This document shows positions 4,765 through 64,000 of a stretch of 64,000 nucleotides of DNA, piece after piece. Below the pieces are notes generated by a model. The model searched no databases, was not told the origin of the DNA, and worked only from the letters and a program-made list of their open reading frames with translations. A program made the translations under genes and the position numbers. This stretch comes from Brachyhypopomus gauderio (taxonomy: Eukaryota; Chordata; Actinopteri; Gymnotiformes; Hypopomidae), in the NCBI RefSeq assembly GCF_052324685.1, contig NW_027506895.1:396001-460000 (forward strand). The letters are read 5' to 3'. Every line of letters begins with the position of its first letter. The stretch's first letter is position 1.

Positions 4765-7365
<2,601 letters not shown>

Positions 7366-8680: not shown

Positions 8681-9573
8681 CCAGACTCCAACAACACACC
8701 TTCTTCACCTGGCCCTCCAAACTCGGCTTCCTCCCAAATCGAGACACAAAGCCCGACTAGGAGACACAAACACACGCACACACAAAAACAGTGGTGGCTG
8801 TTTGGACAAGTGTATTATGGGGTACTTACAGCATCCCACCTTTTGAGTTTGAAGAAAACTGACGTGTTGCTTATTCTGTTCTCAAAGGATTTCATGCACG
8901 TTCTCAGAAAAAGAAAAATTGTATGGTTACAGGTTGGACCTAATGCAGCCGGCTAGCATCTAAGCTAGTAGTCGTCTTCAGGACTGCAGTGCTCCTCTTA
9001 AAAGAACCTGCTCGTAACCTCTGGGAGGATCTCCACTGAGTGCCTCCCTAAATCAACACCCACAGAATTCCGGCTTCTGGCCATGTGGCGTCCACTCACC
9101 CATCCTCCCTTGTCCCTGATTTCGGGGCAGATGACCCTCTCGACGTAGCTGCCCACGCAGTGCTGGAGCTGGGGCAGGATGGCGTTCATGCCCCTCGACT
9201 GGCAGTGCAGAGCCATCTGGCCCGCCAGCACGTAGGTGGAGAGCACGGCGCTCCAGGCCAGATCTCGGCGGCGGGTCGGGGCGAAGTGCTCGTCCAGGAT
9301 GGTGACGAGGGTGCTGCACGCCGTCTCCTCCGTCACGTCGCGGAAGACGCGGGGCCAACGGCGGAAGAAGATGGGGAAGCGGAGGAGGAGCTCGTCCCCG
9401 GCGTGACGCAGGGCCGCGGAGGCCGGAGAGGGGGCGGGGCCCGACGGGGGCCGCGGCTGGGCCGTCACGTAGTCGATGTAGTCATAAGCCATCAAGTAGG
9501 CCTCCCGCACCAGGGGGTCGGGACTCGTCAGACCCTGGCCTGGGTCGGACTTGCCCATCACTGCTGCGTCCAA
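8625..9573 (-). CDS. bcl2l16: Bcl-2 family protein, two exons, 201 aa, probable Bcl-wav
   Basis: Apoptosis regulator of the multi-domain Bcl-2 fold. Exon 1 is 9573-9100 (158 codons) and exon 2 is 8756-8625 (43 codons plus TAA). The intron falls exactly after the Trp of the BH2 motif (DKGGW|SGF), where an intron interrupts BH2 in other Bcl-2 family genes; donor GTGAGT, acceptor CCTAG. Residues 21-36 look like an amphipathic helix 1. Residues 55-66 (LRHAGDELLLRF) form a BH3 with the diagnostic Gly-Asp-Glu. Residues 105-122 occupy the BH1 position, but the usual NWGR is replaced by LAWSA. Residues 179-196 form a hydrophobic C-terminal anchor followed by a basic KKRMT tail, so it should be membrane-tethered on mitochondria or ER. 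The sequence is not Bok, Bak, Bax or Bcl2l10 as I know them. The fish Bcl-wav (bcl2l16) assignment is by elimination. Whether it promotes or blocks apoptosis cannot be told from sequence. Confidence 0.85.
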
Positions 9574-29680: not shown

Positions 29681-30861
29681 AGCTGGAGCATATCATTATA
29701 TTCAAGGGCTACATCATCTCTGATTTAAATACCACCAGCAAGATGGCTCACACATAATGACCACGTCATTAGGCACACCAGCCTTGTCAGATCAAAACTC
29801 GCCGCATCACATGATCTTCCCGCCGGGCTTTGAAGCCGCAGCGACGTCTCCCGCGCGTCGTGTTCGGCTCTACGTCAGAGAGCACGCGGAACATCTCGGA
29901 GCGCGCACCGGAGTACGGAAACGAGCCTGTCGCAGATCCCAGCTAGTGCGGCAGGTCCGGCCGAGCAAGGCTAGCTCACCGCACTGCAACTTCAGCCGAT
30001 TCGTTTGCATTGTAAATCAGACGCCCGACGCAGACGTACCCTCCGGTTCTCCCCCCCCCGTCCTTGTATTAAGCACGGTGAGCCTTTAATGTACTGCAGC
30101 CTCAGTTCCGAAAGTGGTGGAGAAGGACGGGGAAGGTCTAATTGGATTTAGGGAAGTGTCTAATCCTCGTCAGGCTGAAACCACGCGGGTAGAGGCGGAG
30201 GTGCAGAGAGGAGGGTCTCTGGATTCACCCGCCGCTACTGCGTCGTGCTTTATGGACCTTTCACTAATCTTAAGTCCAAATCACCAGAACTATCCCCCTA
30301 GAAAACTCGTAACGACGTATTAAAGGAATACTCCAGTCATTTTTAACCTAGAATCTGTTGGAATAGAGCAAATATTTTGGACACATTTCCCTGCACTTAG
30401 ATGGGTGGAAAAATCCACAATCTCACAAAAGTGCTTAGGCTTTCGCTAGAAGTGTGTTTCAACTTTCTCAGTTCTGGCTAAAATACACGGCAATGTGTCA
30501 AAATTGTTGTACATCGTAATCAACCACAATACAGTAGGCTACATCATAATCCCACGTCTGGGTGGGAGTAGAGGAATCCCCCCCCCCCCCCCCCCCCCCG
30601 CCGCCCCACGATGATGTTGTGCGTGATGTCGGGCACGTCTGACCTGATGTAGTCGTTCCTGCAGAGGATCATGCCCCCTTTGCTGTAGCAGGTGGTGCCG
30701 ATCTCGCCCAGCTGGGCCTGGCAGCAAGAACACTTCAGGCAACGCGTGTGCCAGTACCGCTCCATGGAGAAGAGCAGGAAGCGGTCGGAGATGCGGCCGC
30801 CGCAGCCCGCGCAGGCCCGGGGGGGCGTGCACCCGCCGCCCGCCGCCTGGCTGTTCACCAT
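28509..30861 (-). CDS. lmo4: LIM-only transcription cofactor LMO4, 157 aa
   Basis: Nuclear adaptor with two tandem LIM zinc-binding domains that bridges LDB1 and DNA-binding partners. Coding exons: 30861-30644, 29624-29528, 28906-28757 and 28517-28509. All phases join, giving 158 codons with the stop. LIM1 runs from CAGCGGRI (residue 17) to the end of the first coding exon, and LIM2 from ACSACGQS onward, with zinc Cys/His ligands in place. The last exon encodes only Val-Cys-stop (GTT TGT TGA after TTGGCAG), matching the conserved C-terminal DQKVC of LMO4. The ATG sits two bases after the acceptor CACAG. A non-coding exon and TATA promoter lie at 32.4-32.7 kb. The N-terminus (MVNSQAAGGGCTPPRA) and residues before the C-terminus diverge from mammalian LMO4. 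Fish have lmo4a and lmo4b; I cannot say which this is. A plausible polyadenylation signal (TTTATT on plus) is at about 27785. Confidence 0.95.
29630..29678. repeat. (CA)n tract against the lmo4 LIM2 exon acceptor
   Basis: About 23 CA units that on the lmo4 strand read (GT)n, followed by TTTCAG and then the exon starting at 29624. The microsatellite therefore supplies almost all of the sequence upstream of this 3' splice site. Confidence 0.9.
30578..30600. repeat. Poly-C run in lmo4 intron
   Basis: Long C homopolymer 45 bp past the donor of the first coding lmo4 exon (G-run on the transcript strand). Confidence 0.85.
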
Positions 30862-32401
30862 GCCTGTGGAAGGTCGAAGGTCACGGGGGTCAGGGGTTAG
30901 TACGGAGGGACGGGTGACGGCGGACGGGTGTGCCACCCCAACGGTGCTGGCCCACGAGCGGATCAGGCCGGGACGCTCCAAGAGCTAATTTGAGTTCTGA
31001 CTCTACGTGGACAGTAGCATCCATGAGGTGACATGACGGCTCGCTGTAGGCAAATTAGTGATGATGTACAAGATTATGGTTCAATGGATCCGTTTTACTA
31101 TGCTGGGGGGTTGGGAGACTTAAACTGAAGCAGCTTAGGCAGTATACTCGTCTGTCTGTGTGTCTGTCCATCTGTCTGTCTGTCTGTCTGTCCATCCACC
31201 CATCGTTAAAGAACCTGTATAATCACATTAAGTTTTTTTTTACCTCTCCAAAAAACCAGTACTCAAGGTGCAGGTGTAGTAGTAGATTATTGTAGCCCAC
31301 CTTTTGTATGCTTTACAGACACAGAACCAGGCGTTTTACGGAGATACACACCTATTACTCTTCTCTAGGGCACTGTACACAAAACCTCCATACACCTATT
31401 AGCCTGCATAAATGAATAAACCTGTACGTTTAGTAATATTTATGTTAGTGGCTGCAGACAGCTACAAGAAGGCAGCCTTGATCATGTTAATTTATGGCAT
31501 ACCTAGATTAAGGCTTGATATGAATGGGTCTCTCATCAGATCATATGTAATCTGATATGTAAACATTTGTCAAATTAACTCAACTGTGCGGTCGAGTGAA
31601 AGAGCTGGGGGAAGCTTAGTGTGGCCAGTCAAGCTTAATGTTGGTCACCATCAGTGATCATACACAGTTGTAAAAATACTCCATACCTCTACAGATTGTG
31701 GAATTGACCGATATAAAATAGTTCTTTAATCCGAATGGTAGGTCCAAGTGATTAATGAGGTTTCGGATAGAAATTACAGACTCAAAACAAGATTTTGCAT
31801 GCTGCCAGCCTTCATATTTAAACAATTTTCTGGACTACTGTAAGTGAAACAATCAAGCGATCCGTTTGTGTTTCTGTTCGCGGTCCAACCCTAGACAACG
31901 TCATTAACTTTTAGACAGATGGTCACGGTTTCCAAAACTGGCTCATCATTAATGGTCGCTGTACTTTCTCTGGGCATTTAAAACGTCCAGACACAGAATG
32001 ATGAGATTACTGTGAAGGCAGATAAACAGTGCAGGACGTTTATTTATGTGTTTAGTTGGAGGGGGCGACGCATTACAGTCACAAAGAAAAACAATAACCA
32101 ACTACGGACAAAACTACAATAACTATAATCCAATGATGTTACATTAATAGACACTACCACCCCCAGCCCACCCCCGCCCATATAGCAACTTAAGAGTTAT
32201 TGTTTTATTATAATTTATTTTATTATTAAATTATTTATTACCGCCGCCAAGGTACTCTGCGTCTGTCTGCTACAAAGCGAATACTACTGAGTATATAAAC
32301 CTACAGAAATACAGAAGTCTGACTTACATCTTGAACTTCGTTCTAAACTCTATACGTGAAAACGAGAACGATATCAAAAACAGGATGAGGTAGCCACTCA
32401 C

Positions 32402-36023: not shown

Positions 36024-38710
36024 TCAGCGGGAGAACGTGTGTACGTCGTTGCGAAGGCTAACGGAAGGCGCCGCCTCGTCGCCGTCGCAGTGCCTCCTGC
36101 CGCAGCGGCAGCGCCGGATCCACATGACGTTGCGCGTGACGCTCTCGCCGTCCGGGCAGCGGAAGCGCATGCGCACCGTGCGTGACTCGGACGGCCGACA
36201 GCACCTGCCGTCCGAGCACGAGCCGCACGTCCGCGGTCGGTAGCGCCTCACCGTGCTGCAGCCGGCGAACGTGATGTGCTCGGGCTCGCGCGACCTCGCG
36301 GCCCGCACGCATTTCTTCCCCCTCTGAACAAACGCGGAAACATGTTACGTTTAATTTGATTACAACGTGCAGTATGCGCATGTCTTTATACAAAAATGAC
36401 CAAATTTTCAAGTTTTCTGGCCCTTGACTTTACGCTTAAACGCAGCTAAATCTGCAGAAAGTGTGTATCTCGTAGGTGTGTATCCGTCCAGTACAGACGT
36501 GGACGGCCGCCTTACCCTGACCACGGGGGTGACGTCACACTTGCGGACCTGACAGAGGCGTGTTTCCCGGACCAGCTTGCACCGCGGGTTGCTGTTGGTG
36601 ACACGGCTGGAGATGCCAAACCCGCAGGGGGACGAGCACCGGGACCAGTCTGTGGTCTGCGGGTAGCATTCGGACGAAGGGGAGGGAAGTCCCCACACAG
36701 CTGGCCCCGCCCACTCTGCACAGAACAGGATACAGGCATCGCGTTTACCTGATGTCATTTAGCAGTTTGCCTTTCGATAAAGTTGCATGCAGCCTCACCT
36801 TGGAAGGCGTCTCCGTTAGCTCGGCGAGCGCCGGGCGGCCATACCAGCATGCCGATGTGGTTGGCGTGGGAGTGTGGGAGTGGGGGCGGTGTGTCCTCTC
36901 TGATGTGATTGTCGTCATCACACACCCAACTCTGGCAGCAGTGCCCGGGGGGCGTCTCTAGACGCGGGCTGGCACAGTGCCCCCGGGGCAGGAGCAGCGG
37001 CTGGGGGCAGACGGGCACACAGCCCACCACGCCGTCTGTACAGCTGCAACGGTGTTCACAGCGCAGTTGGAAGTCCTCACCATGTTGGACCACCTGCCCA
37101 CCAAACTCACACGGACGACCGTGAGCGGCAGCTGAGGGAATATACACCACACATCGCACACACACCACATACACACACACACATCACATACACACCACAC
37201 ACATACACACACCACACAAACACACACACACACGCACACACACGACGCATACATGCATACATTCATACATTCAATAAGATTTAATGTTTATAATTACTCA
37301 ATGTGTACACAGCGTCTATTTGTCAACAATGTAAACACACACAGTGTAATGTAAATACTAAAATGCTGAGCTGAATATGTTTTAATCACAGTAATAATTC
37401 AAATTCACGTTTGCACACAGCCCCCTTGCCCTGTCCATCATCACCTCGGCAGACGCCGCGGTAGGGGTCTCCTCCGGCCCCTAGGTGGCAGTGCAGGCCC
37501 TTGATGTGGTCACAAGGTTTGTCCGGGCCACAGTCCTGGTTGAACTGTTGCGCACACACCTTACAACACCCACACTCATCCAGCACCCAGCTTACTCCCA
37601 CTGGACAGGAGGGAGGGGACGGGGGGCAGGAGCACGGTGCAGAACAGCCTCCTGACATCTGGCAAAGCACAGCAGGGGGGTGGAGAGCGGGTGAAGGAAC
37701 AGCTCATAATGACATAATGTACTGAAATCACCAGTCAGATAAAAGACATTCAGTATTGGTGGATGGTTTAGACAAGTGATATGTATAGGCTGTGTGGAAT
37801 TAGTAAACCGGTTCTTGTGGTATGAAATTGCAATTGAATACAAGGTGACATTTTTATCTTCTGCTTGGATGGAATGTGATAGTTTTGACTGGGAAAAGAA
37901 ACTCTTCTTGCTCCCACAGTGCAGTGTGGCGATAAATCTGCTAACCAGTGTTCACTAGCAGTAGAAATACCTGAACGGGCTGGTGGCCAGAGCGAATACC
38001 GCATGTACTCCTGAGAGTATACCACATGTACTTCTGAGAGTATACCACATAGACTCTTGAGAGTATACCACATGGACTCCTGAGAGTATACCACATGGAC
38101 TCCTGAGAGTATACCACTTGAACTCTTGAGAGTATACCACATGTACTCATGAGAGAGTCACACGGGCTTTAACTGTCGAAGCCTGAACTTATATGAACTC
38201 ATGTTGCCATTCAGCCTGAGGACTGTTTGCTTTTACCCTAAAGGTCCGTGGTAGGAATCAGCTGTCTTCCAAGTGTGGTTCTTAAACAAATGATATTAAT
38301 AATCAGATATGCGCTTTTTGATGAAGATCATTGTCTGAATACTGTCTTATCTACAGAGGTTATAATATCTGCAAACATATCATGCACATTAAGAGAACCC
38401 ACAATAATTTATGGACTTCAGTGATTTTATCTCTGTCTGCAGGCATTACTGCAAATTACAGTCATGCTGGCAATAAGAACTGAAATATTAAATCTGTCTC
38501 GTTTGATGGAAGAGATGATAATAAGCAGCACCTGAGCCCTGAGGTGTTTAAGCACACGTACGTTGCAATGTGAAGTATCTAAATGAAGAGTTCCTACAGC
38601 ACCTCTGAAATGCAGACACAGTGGAATCTCAGTGGATTTCACATACTCACTCTGTCTGCGGCACAGACACTAGCTGCCATTAGCAGGACAATGCCCAGAA
38701 CTGTCTCCAT
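36024..38710 (-). CDS. ccn1: CCN1/CYR61-type matricellular protein, five exons, 368 aa
   Basis: Secreted cysteine-rich signalling protein of the CCN family. Exons: 38710-38651, 37658-37445, 37131-36799, 36715-36516 and 36323-36024. All are GT-AG and phases add to 369 codons with the stop. One exon per module, as in the family: signal peptide (METVLGIVLLMAASVCAAD), IGFBP-like domain (residues 21-91, with CGCCKVCAQQ), VWC domain (about 96-165), TSP1 repeat (about 222-265, WSRCSSPCG) and C-terminal cystine knot (270-368, CGSCSDGRCC). The C-terminus (NDVHTFSR) aligns with CYR61 NDIHKFRD, and the length fits CYR61 (381 aa in human), so CCN1 rather than CCN2 or CCN3. Fish carry several ccn1 paralogues and this may be ccn1l1 or ccn1l2. 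The linker between VWC and TSP1 is shorter and less basic than I expect for CYR61. Nearness to lmo4 fits the human 1p22 arrangement. Confidence 0.93.
37150..37240. repeat. CA-rich array in intron 2 of the CCN gene
   Basis: Irregular CACACATA/CACCACA repeats, reading GT-rich on the gene strand, about 20 bp upstream of the VWC exon acceptor (CCCTCAG at 37132). Confidence 0.85.
37991..38156. repeat. 23-bp minisatellite in intron 1 of the CCN gene
   Basis: Seven copies of a unit close to CTCCTGAGAGTATACCACATGGA. It reads as an open frame in several phases because 23 is not a multiple of 3, but it is intronic. Confidence 0.95.
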
Positions 38711-40361: not shown

Positions 40362-41455
40362 AAAGCTTTTCTGCTACTGAAAGCTTGTCTGCTACTGAAT
40401 GCTTGTCTGCTACTGAAAGCTTGTCTGCTACTGAAAGTTTGTCTGCTACTGAATGTTTGTCTGCTACTGAAAGCTTGTGTGCTATTGAATGCTTGTCTGC
40501 TACTGAATGCTTGTCTACTACTGAAAGTTTGTCTGCTACTGAATGCTTGTCTGCTACTGAAAGTTTGTCTGCTACTAAATGTTTGTCTGCTACTGAATGC
40601 TTGTCTGCTACTGAATGTTTGTCTGCTACTGAATGCTTGTCTGCTACTGAATGCTTGTCTGCTACTGAAAGCTTGTCTACTACTGAAAGCTTGTCTGCTA
40701 CTGAATGCTTGTCTGCTACTGAATGCTTGTCTGCTACTGAATGCTTGTCTGCTACTGAAAGCTTGTCTGCTACTGAATGCTTGTCTGCTACTGAATGCTT
40801 GTCTGCTACTGAAAGCTTGTCTACTACTGAAAGCTTGTCTGCTACTGAATGCTTGTCTGCTACTGAAAGCTTGTCTGCTACTGAATGCTTGTCTGCTACT
40901 GAATGCTTGTCTGCTACTGAAAGTTTGTCTGCTACTGAATGCTTGTCTGCTACTGAATGCTTGTCTGCTACTGAAAGTTTTTCTGCTACTGAATGCTTGT
41001 CTGCTACTGAAAGTTTGTCTGCTACTAAATGTTTGTCTGCTACTGAATGCTTGTCTGCTACTGAATGTTTGTCTGATACTGAATGCTTGTCTGCTACTGA
41101 ATGCTTGTCTGCTACTGAAAGCTTGTCTACTACTGAAAGCTTGTCTGCTACTGAATGCTTGTCTGCTACTGAATGCTTGTCTGCTACTGAAAGCTTGTCT
41201 GCTACTGAATGCTTGTCTGCTACTGAATGCTTGTCTGCTACTGAATGCTTGTCTGCTACTGAATGCTTGTCTGCTACTGAAAGCTTGTCTGCTACTGAAT
41301 GCTTGTCTGCTACTGAATGCTTGTCTGCTACTGAATGCTTGTCTGCTACTGAATGCTTGTCTGCTACTGAAAGTTTGTCTGCAACTGAATGCTTGTCTGC
41401 TACTGAATGCTTGTCTGCTACTGAATGCTTGTCTAGTACTGAATGCTTGTCCCTA
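40362..41455. repeat. 18-bp minisatellite, about 60 units
   Basis: Unit GCTTGTCTGCTACTGAAT with a common variant ending GAAA. It is a multiple of 3 and stop-free in several frames, so it gives 370-400 codon open frames on both strands (ATECLS or LLLNAC on plus; HSVADK on minus). Part of the array recurs at an offset of 450 bp (25 units; 40571 versus 41021, shared CTACTAAATG variant), a higher-order duplication. The flanks carry no exon I recognise. Confidence 0.95.
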
Positions 41456-50252: not shown

Positions 50253-60939
<10,687 letters not shown>

Positions 60940-60951
<12 letters not shown>

Positions 60952-63900
60952 GTTAGTGTCACATCATCTAGAGCGAGGGAGCGTTCTCCACCACTCTGAT
61001 TCTGAGAGACCAGGTTAGTGTCACATCATCTAGAGCGAGGCAGCGTTCTCCACCACTCTGATTCTGAGAGACCAGGTTAGTGTCACATCATCTAGAGCGA
61101 GGGAGCGTTCTCCACCACTCTGATTCTGAGAGACCAGGTTAGTGTCACATCATCTAGAGCGAGGGAGCGTTCTCCACCACTCTGATTCTGAGAGACCAGG
61201 TTAGTGTCACATCATCTAGAGCGAGGGAGCGTTCTCCACCACTCTGATTCTGAGAGACCAGGTTAGTGTCACATCATCTAGAGCGAGGGAGCGTTCTCCA
61301 CCACTCTGATTCTGAGAGACCAGGTTAGTGTCACATCATCTAGAGCGAGGGAGCGTTCTCCACCACTCTGATTCTGAGAGACCAGGTTAGTGTCACATCA
61401 TCTAGAGCGAGGGAGCGTTCTCCACCACTCTGATTCTGAGAGACCAGGTTAGTGTCACATCATCTAGAGCGAGGCAGCGTTCTCCACCACTCTGATTCTG
61501 AGAGACCAGGTTAGTGTCACATCATCTAGAGCGAGGGAGCGTTCTCCACCACTCTGATTCTGAGAGACCAGGTTAGTGTCACATCATCTAGAGCGAGGGA
61601 GCGTTCTCCACCACTCTGATTCTGAGAGACCAGGTTAGTGTCACATCATCTAGAGCGAGGGAGCGTTCTCCACCACTCTGATTCTGAGAGACCAGGTTAG
61701 TGTCACATCATCTAGAGCGAGGGAGCGTTCTCCACCACTCTGATTCTGAGAGACCAGGTTAGTGTCACATCATCTAGAGCGAGGGAGCGTTCTCCACCAC
61801 TCTGATTCTGAGAGACCAGGTTAGTGTCACATCATCTAGAGCGAGGGAGCGTTCTCCACCACTCTGATTCTGAGAGACCAGGTTAGTGTCACATCATCTA
61901 GAGCGAGGGAGCGTTCTCCACCACTCTGATTCTGAGAGACCAGGTTAGTGTCACATCATCTAGAGCGAGGGAGCGTTCTCCACCACTCTGATTCTGAGAG
62001 ACCAGGTTAGTGTCACATCATCTAGAGCGAGGGAGCGTTCTCCACCACTCTGATTCTGAGAGACCAGGTTAGTGTCACATCATCTAGAGCGAGGGAGCGT
62101 TCTCCACCACTCTGATTCTGAGAGACCAGGTTAGTGTCACATCATCTAGAGCGAGGGAGCGTTCTCCACCACTCTGATTCTGAGAGACCAGGTTAGTGTC
62201 ACATCATCTAGAGCGAGGGAGCGTTCTCCACCACTCTGATTCTGAGAGACCAGGTTAGTGTCACATCATCTAGAGCGAGGGAGCGTTCTCCACCACTCTG
62301 ATTCTGAGAGACCAGGTTAGTGTCACATCATCTAGAGCGAGGGAGCGTTCTCCACCACTCTGATTCTGAGAGACCAGGTTAGTGTCACATCATCTAGAGC
62401 GAGGGAGCGTTCTCCACCACTCTGATTCTGAGAGACCAGGTTAGTGTCACATCATCTAGAGCGAGGGAGCGTTCTCCACCACTCTGATTCTGAGAGACCA
62501 GGTTAGTGTCACATCATCTAGAGCGAGGGAGCGTTCTCCACCACTCTGATTCTGAGAGACCAGGTTAGTGTCACATCATCTAGAGCGAGGGAGCGTTCTC
62601 CACACCACTCTGATTCTGAGAGACCAGGTTAGTGTCACATCATCTAGAGCGAGGGAGCGTTCTCCACACCACTGCTTCTGAGAGACCAGGTTAGTGTCAC
62701 ATCATCTAGAGCGAGGGAGCGTTCTCCACACCACTCTGATTCTGAGAGACCAGGTTAGTGTCACATCATCTAGAGCGAGGGAGCGTTCTCCACACCACTG
62801 CTTCTGAGAGACCAGGTTAGTGTCACATCATCTAGAGCGAGGGAGCGTTCTCCACCACTCTGATTCTGAGAGACCAGGTTAGTGTCACATCATCTAGAGC
62901 GAGGGAGCGTTCTCCACACCACTGCTTCTGAGAGACCAGGTTAGTGTCACATCATCTAGAGCGAGGGAGCGTTCTCCACACCACTCTGATTCTGAGAGAC
63001 CAGGTTAGTGTCACATCATCTAGAGCGAGGGAGCGTTCTCCACACCACTGCTTCTGAGAGACCAGGTTAGTGTCACATCATCTAGAGCGAGGGAGCGTTC
63101 TCCACACCACTGCTTCTGAGAGACCAGGTTAGTGTCACATCATCTAGAGCGAGGGAGCGTTCTCCACCACTCTGATTCTGAGAGACCAGGTTAGTGTCAC
63201 ATCATCTAGAGCGAGGGAGCGTTCTCCACCACTCTGATTCTGAGAGACCAGGTTAGTGTCACATCATCTAGAGCGAGGGAGCGTTCTCCACCACTCTGAT
63301 TCTGAGAGACCAGGTTAGTGTCACATCATCTAGAGCGAGGGAGCGTTCTCCACCACTCTGATTCTGAGAGACCAGGTTAGTGTCACATCATCTAGAGCGA
63401 GGGAGCGTTCTCCACCACTCTGATTCTGAGAGACCAGGTTAGTGTCACATCATCTAGAGCGAGGGAGCGTTCTCCACCACTCTGATTCTGAGAGACCAGG
63501 TTAGTGTCACATCATCTAGAGCGAGGGAGCGTTCTCCACACCACTCTGATTCTGAGAGACCAGGTTAGTGTCACATCATCTAGAGCGAGGGAGCGTTCTC
63601 CACCACTCTGATTCTGAGAGACCAGGTTAGTGTCACATCATCTAGAGCGAGGGAGCGTTCTCCACCACTCTGATTCTGAGAGACCAGGTTAGTGTCACAT
63701 CATCTAGAGCGAGGGAGCGTTCTCCACCACTCTGATTCTGAGAGACCAGGTTAGTGTCACATCATCTAGAGCGAGGGAGCGTTCTCCACCACTCTGATTC
63801 TGAGAGACCAGGTTAGTGTCACATCATCTAGAGCTAGGGAGCGTTCTCCACACCACTCTGATTCTGAGAGACCAGGTTAGTGTCACATCATCTAGAGCGA

Positions 63901-64000
63901 GGGAGCGTTCTCCACCACTCTGATTCTGAGAGACCAGGTTAGTGTCACATCATCTAGAGCGAGGGAGCGTTCTCCACCACTCTGATTCTGAGAGACCAGG
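60940..64000. repeat. 62-bp satellite-like array carrying the fkbp15 exon 24 splice donor, about 49 units
   Basis: The unit contains GAGAGACCAG|GTTAGTGTCA, identical to the last bases of exon 24 plus its donor, then about 50 bases of intron. The first donor is at 60952, the second at 61014 and so on every 62 bp to the window end. Copies are nearly identical. Variants are a 64-bp form with CCACACCACTCTG, a form with ACCACTGCTTCTG (mostly 62.58-63.12 kb), GAGGCAGCG in two units near 61.04 and 61.47 kb, and GAGCTAGGG near 63.83 kb. The array runs off the window, so its length is unknown. Confidence 0.97.

Follow-up and report, generated by a model that had tools for sequence, protein, structure and literature searches.

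A donor-bearing minisatellite at an exon–intron boundary of a predicted fkbp15 gene in Brachyhypopomus gauderio

Tandem repeats of exon–intron boundaries are known from lancelets, where they have been termed mirages and occur in Adh3, in the globin genes BflGb6 and BflGb9, in TnC and in PGBD5, with units of 10–72 bp in Adh3, 150–160 bp in the globin genes, and 60 and 108 bp in PGBD5 (PMC3087553, PMC3902484). In these reports, reverse transcription PCR (RT-PCR) together with earlier data suggests that regular splicing of the globin genes and Adh3 is undisturbed (PMC3087553, PMC3902484). In humans, intron 18 of ABCA7 contains a variable number tandem repeat (VNTR) of ~12 to 427 donor-bearing 25-bp units that carry the exon-18 donor; as described, retention of one unit amounts to ~2% and is unchanged by array length, while exon skipping rises and expression falls with length (PMC5954066). 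More generally, variable repeats at human exon–intron boundaries are described as potential sources of novel introns (PMC2812944). Here we analyse a 64,000-nucleotide stretch of the genome of the fish Brachyhypopomus gauderio (contig NW_027506895.1, positions 396,001 to 460,000 of the forward strand; hereafter the window, whose own numbering we use throughout), at the end of which the last 12 bases of a coding exon and the adjoining 5' splice site of the fkbp15 gene are repeated in tandem at least 49 times.

We regard the fkbp15 array as a boundary minisatellite, or mirage, of this known kind, which should work like the ABCA7 VNTR. As in a mirage, its tandem units span an exon–intron boundary of a coding gene, and AG/GT signals are present in 49/49 units, where the lancelet arrays are described as carrying them in many, but not all, units. 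The lancelet cases, which come from cephalochordates, differ in copy number (BflGb6 is reported with 6 or 3 units depending on haplotype, compared to at least 49 here) and, as described, span acceptors as well as donors, whereas the three cases that we report span donors; moreover, splicing of the lancelet globin genes was checked by RT-PCR, whereas that of fkbp15 is predicted from sequence. As in the published description of ABCA7, the repeat starts at an authentic donor (here 12 bases inside the exon), the units bring a donor with them, the unit length (25 bp in ABCA7) is not a multiple of 3, and retention of a unit leads to a premature stop, which in fkbp15 is predicted from the sequence (TGA at 60997). 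The ABCA7 units, in contrast, start at GT, and their description includes no exonic bases; it is there that polymorphism and splicing effects have been measured. What is new is the setting, namely three cases in one genome, two of them in neighbouring introns and one whose 45-bp unit is open and in frame. Our search of the open-access literature, whose results included a fish myostatin-2 paper concerning a minisatellite (PMC3045353), recognised no example from a fish or from fkbp15.

An array of exon end and donor in fkbp15

Tandem Repeats Finder reported one array at 60940–64000, with a period of 62, 49.2 copies, 98% matches and a score of 5871. A first-pass annotation of this DNA had described about 49 tandem copies of an exon end plus donor in fkbp15, and direct splitting of the array bore this out, giving 49 complete units (44 of 62 bp and 5 of 64 bp) and, where the window stops, 13 bases of one more. 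Every one of the 49 units contains CTGAGAGACCAG/GTTAGT (the slash marks the splice junction), that is, the last 12 exon bases and the donor, with CAG/GTTAGT intact throughout. Exactly 12 exonic bases are common to the exon and the repeat, base −13 being C in the exon and T in the repeat. The units fall into five types, A (37 units of 62 bp), B (5 of 62 bp), C (4 of 64 bp), D (2 of 62 bp) and E (1 of 64 bp), arranged in the order ADAAAAAADAAAAAAAAAAAAAAAAACBCBABCBBAAAAAACAAAAEAA. The differences between them (two single-base changes, a CA insertion and a TGA/GC change) are confined to the unit's later, intronic part, but are too few for a conclusion to be drawn from this. The pyrimidine-leaning stretch that the annotation had placed in every unit occurs unchanged in types A and D (39/49 units); the remaining 10 units carry a variant with CACACC, and in 5 of these GCTT replaces TGATT. 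Mean pairwise identity between units is 98.1% (1176 pairs), which fits the annotation's suggestion of recent expansion or homogenisation.

The 18-base junction CTGAGAGACCAGGTTAGT has 49 exact matches in the genome, every one forward and inside the window, compared to 0 for the backward control; the search covered 796,539,105 bases in 840 contigs, in which stretches of N, including the 5,000 bases after the window, are uncountable. Chance is excluded as the origin of the array. Past the window lie 5,000 Ns (C51:460001-465000), and in the sequence beyond them Tandem Repeats Finder found no array; the end of the array therefore falls within the N stretch, and 49 is the minimum copy number. The array contains no AATAAA or ATTAAA poly(A) signal, and the window has no Rfam match at the gathering threshold. 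Stable hairpins, considered as a cause or an effect of the array, were rejected, as the unit and the dimer fold no better than shuffles either as RNA (z 0.07, 1.20, −1.02) or as DNA (z 0.76, 1.80, −0.21).

Domain matches identify the host gene as FKBP15. Exons 57012–60951 joined in order match the Pfam family FKBP15 (PF23649) with 142.8 bits against a cut-off of 27 (residues 2–173 of 270, to the profile end), and three upstream exons (52936–54081) match FKBP_C with 98.9 bits. The exon that runs into the array (60859–60951) follows a good acceptor (CCTCTCTCTCTCCCACAG) and reads without a stop in phase 0; it falls beyond the Pfam-matched part, and its order and phase point to FKBP15. Among 11 candidates scored for a paralogue or second haplotype of these exons, there were 3 matches at E ≤ 0.001, all inside the window. 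Past the Ns, an acidic open stretch (L009:6181-6804) looks like the C-terminal region of FKBP15; Pfam did not confirm this, its only match to the stretch being Utp14 at 16.2 bits, below the 30.2 cut-off. Elsewhere in the gene, the acceptor at 53938 has a (TC)71 run (53794–53935) as its pyrimidine tract, and (TG)n runs take the place of the pyrimidine tract at 60267, 59917 and 56042.

Identical donors and a shared premature stop

The computed pairing of CAG/GTTAGT with U1 is −7.7 kcal/mol, inside the gene's own range of −4.1 to −10.9; of 22 mapped exon ends, the 16 with GT next to them supplied this range (the other 6 ends are unrefined). All 49 donors are alike, and motif strength therefore cannot pick among them; position can. 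When the first donor is skipped, the reading frame meets a TGA at 60997–60999, which precedes the second donor (61013/61014); use of any downstream donor therefore brings in this one premature stop, no matter how many copies there are. The expectation in the annotation that downstream donors would shift the frame or hit stops thus holds as far as the stop is concerned, but the reason given for it, a unit length that is not a multiple of 3, is unneeded. Splicing probably relies almost entirely on the first donor, because any later donor retains the in-frame TGA at 60997, and two precedents, the lancelet mirages and ABCA7, speak for the same preference.

We consider it likely that the array is an intronic minisatellite that took in a donor and expanded through tandem duplication, and that almost every transcript is spliced from its first donor. 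The founding unit would have comprised the last 12 exon bases, the 5' splice site and the first 50 intron bases. At the first tandem duplication the upstream copy would have stayed in place as exon and donor while the new copy entered the intron, and repeated slippage or unequal exchange would have carried the array to at least 49 copies. Such a geometry would be splice-neutral, in that the outermost copy always remains exon end and donor whatever units are gained or lost, so that expansion and contraction would be tolerated. Transcripts spliced from downstream donors would include the TGA at 60997, and their degradation is to be expected. As in ABCA7, great array length may in addition impair splicing in the neighbourhood of the intron.

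Table 1 Features of the fkbp15 locus discussed in the text (window coordinates).
Feature	Position	Strand	Remarks
Preceding coding exon	60267..60419	+	Ends LTQLQDR; donor AGG/GTACAC, 4/9 consensus matches
Second boundary array	60384..60833	+	7 copies, the exon's own included: last 33–36 bases of exon 60267–60419, donor and (AC)n of varying length
Coding exon (assigned by order and phase)	60859..60951	+	93 bp, phase 0, 31 residues; acceptor CCCACAG; last 12 bases open the repeat unit
Tandem array	60940..64000	+	49 complete units (62 or 64 bp), all combining 12 exonic bases with a donor; reaches window end
First (authentic) 5' splice site, CAG/GTTAGT	60952..60957	+	8/9 matches to the consensus, CAGGTAAGT
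Weak candidate cassette	60972..61013	+	42-base open phase-0 stretch from TCTAG to the next donor (SEGAFSTTLILRDQ); poor acceptor context
First in-frame stop (TGA) if first donor is skipped	60997..60999	+	Read-through VSVTSSRARERSPPL then stop; inside first unit

Boundary arrays elsewhere in the gene and genome

The second boundary array of fkbp15 repeats an exon end of 33 bases (36 with a shared CAC) together with the donor AGG/GTACAC, its copies starting at 60387, 60463, 60525, 60579, 60659, 60707 and 60773. Read-through past the donor of exon 60267–60419 reaches a stop at 60471, before the donor of the next copy. The copies in the intron are diverging, with for example GATACAGG in place of GCTACAGG, and this array therefore looks older than the 62-bp array. 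An independent case with a different unit in a neighbouring intron, it supports the view of the 62-bp array as a minisatellite that captured a donor. Two further minisatellites of the gene adjoin a donor and exclude it, beginning 12 bases (57122) and 21 bases (59753) after the exon end. The first of these (57122–58496) consists of a 19-bp and then a 24-bp repeat (53 copies), and the frame of the exon that it follows (57012–57110) is open through the array to 58526, a 530-codon frame. An 18-bp minisatellite at 40365–41451 (60 copies, 93% matches) has no donor-like motif. Other genes in the window, according to Pfam, encode a tubulin (6349–7362, plus strand), a Bcl-2 family protein (9109–9573, minus strand) and a LIM-domain protein (30610–30981, minus strand), and there is a cystine-knot exon (36045–36326, minus strand) that is presumably CCN-like.

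The third case (L034; C1 near 3151511, minus strand) adjoins an exon that Pfam assigns to LDL-receptor class A (PF00057, 48.4 bits) and whose top solved-structure matches are LRP2, for which scores sum over many such domains. The exon ends NLTCS, CTCACCTGCTCAG/GTGAGT, and CCTCACCTGCTCAG/GTGAGT then recurs through 12 further 45-bp units, in which GTGAGT is preceded by AG in 8/12 and by CG in 4/12. With a unit length divisible by 3 and a frame free of stops for 572 bases beyond the exon, downstream donors here would, unlike those of fkbp15, add 15 residues per unit. The minisatellite of an interferon-induced transcript, human 6-16 (IFI6), reportedly described by Turri et al. in 1995, is said to have a 12-bp unit and in-frame products; if so, L034 is nearer to it than the fkbp15 array is.

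How often the genome produces such arrays was approached by counting. Triplets of a strong donor spaced 45–75 bp apart form at least 12 arrays on the longest contig, among the matches listed. Four distinct arrays were examined (L033, L034, L035 and L038), of which one, L034, lies at an exon boundary; in L033 and L038 no open coding frame reaches the first donor, and L035 adjoins an opposite-strand exon as read by eye, with no Pfam match. For triple CAGGTDAGT at 45–75 bp spacing there were 1036 matches (504 + 532) compared to 2115 (494 + 1621) for the mirrored control, hence no excess in raw counts, and 85 of the 100 listed rows of that control sit in one 10-kb stretch of C2. Triple AAGGTDAGT gave a raw excess, with 258 matches (89 + 169) compared to 73 (40 + 33). 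Merged by hand into separate arrays, among the matches listed, the CAG form numbered 12 compared to 3 in the control (p = 0.035; C1 and the first 2.42 Mb of C2) and the AAG form 26 compared to 11 (p = 0.02; C1 to C13:6.27 Mb), and these hand counts give a combined p of 0.001 for the excess. We take this as a hint of a modest genome-wide excess of donor arrays, one that GT/GA-rich minisatellites could cause, the mirrored motif not being a full control. Across 20 sampled regions of 10 kb each (200 kb in total; one region contains 1,032 Ns), a donor-like 9-mer occurs in 1/74 tandem arrays and its reversed control likewise in 1/74; in the window it occurs in 1/27 arrays, the 62-bp array itself.

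Alternative explanations and significance

Several observations weigh against a donor-capturing array that leaves splicing largely undisturbed. Random placement of the gene's 8 arrays gave at least two donor overlaps in 16% of trials (P = 0.16); donor capture therefore needs no special mechanism, and could be a coincidence in a repeat-rich gene. The 3' end of the array's intron falls in Ns, so that normal splicing of this intron is a presumption. In ABCA7, as described, alternative isoforms together exceed the canonical one in 90% of one brain-sample set, mainly through skipping of exon 19 (PMC5954066), and to treat the fkbp15 array as harmless may accordingly be wrong by analogy.

A different outcome, which we think unlikely, is that many of the donors are used at real rates, yielding mostly degraded transcripts, such that array length sets FKBP15 output; the copy-number-dependent isoforms proposed by the first-pass annotation would be expected under such a regime. 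In its favour, the 49 identical donors each match the U1 consensus at 8/9 positions, and ABCA7 is described as showing both single-unit retention and expression that falls with length (PMC5954066). The retention described there, however, is of one unit, at ~2% and independent of length, and that account does not attribute the fall in expression to nonsense decay (PMC5954066), while the lancelet mirages are reported without disturbance of splicing (PMC3087553, PMC3902484). The annotation had also noted a resemblance of each AG/GT to a recursive splice site, which would serve as acceptor and then donor, the intron being removed stepwise. Recursive sites have a pyrimidine tract and an AG-free zone directly before AG/GT. 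The fkbp15 units share with them the juxtaposed AG/GT, in every unit, and CTCTGATTCTG lies upstream without the CA insertion in 39/49, but they have neither a clean pyrimidine tract nor an AG-free zone: at positions −20 to −5 of unit 2 the pyrimidine fraction is 0.50, another AG lies 3 bases upstream, and the exonic 12 bases that precede the junction are rich in purines. All four scored YAG sites of the unit have an AG within the preceding 15 bases. At the 14/22 mapped exons that start directly after AG, the previous AG is 22–142 bases away (the other 8 rows are unrefined and were left out). Four of these 14 clear acceptors are themselves just 0.50–0.56 pyrimidine, three of them in TG repeats, which weakens a simple pyrimidine argument; their nearest upstream AG is nevertheless at least 23 bases away. 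We reject recursive splicing on the poor acceptor side of each AG/GT and hold it to be highly improbable. A better look-alike of a recursive site than the fkbp15 array is a 35-bp array at C1 37589978-37590266, with CTCTTCACCCACAG/GTTAGT in each listed unit.

That the copy number, or even the array, was made by the assembler is suggested by the difficulty of assembling near-identical 62-bp units and by the way the array runs directly into 5,000 Ns. The five unit types stand in a non-trivial order, however, and fkbp15 contains a second, more diverged array of like design, which makes an artefact very unlikely; an error in the copy number is quite possible, but the array itself is hardly in doubt. 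Nor do we give much credence to the units as nascent cassette exons, each 42-base open stretch being on its way to becoming an exon as in the lancelet model of intron gain, although the lancelet paper, as described, proposes that repeat units are recruited as exons (PMC3087553). Among the 48 stretches scored, 43 are 42 bp long, in phase 0 and open, and 5 are 44 bp long with stops. Against this, the candidate acceptor, TCTAG/AGC, is weak (9/15 pyrimidines, with an AG 13 bases upstream), and a stretch of this kind is open in phase by chance about 1 time in 6, as a rough estimate, so that the odds on such exons seem to us slim indeed.

Going beyond the individual loci, it is conceivable, though we would regard it as a doubtful proposition at present, that this genome repeatedly makes minisatellites of exon ends and donors across many genes, as a vertebrate counterpart of the lancelet mirages, and that open members with a multiple-of-3 unit, such as L034, feed array length into protein as a varying number of inserted repeats. 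With their many identical donors at known spacing, boundary arrays lend themselves to the study of how the spliceosome makes its choice, and of how duplicated boundaries may give rise to new introns or exons. The interest of the fkbp15 array lies mainly in its company: with two arrays in neighbouring introns and a third in another gene, all met in one genome with little searching, the number of boundary minisatellites beyond lancelets and a handful of human genes may be underestimated.
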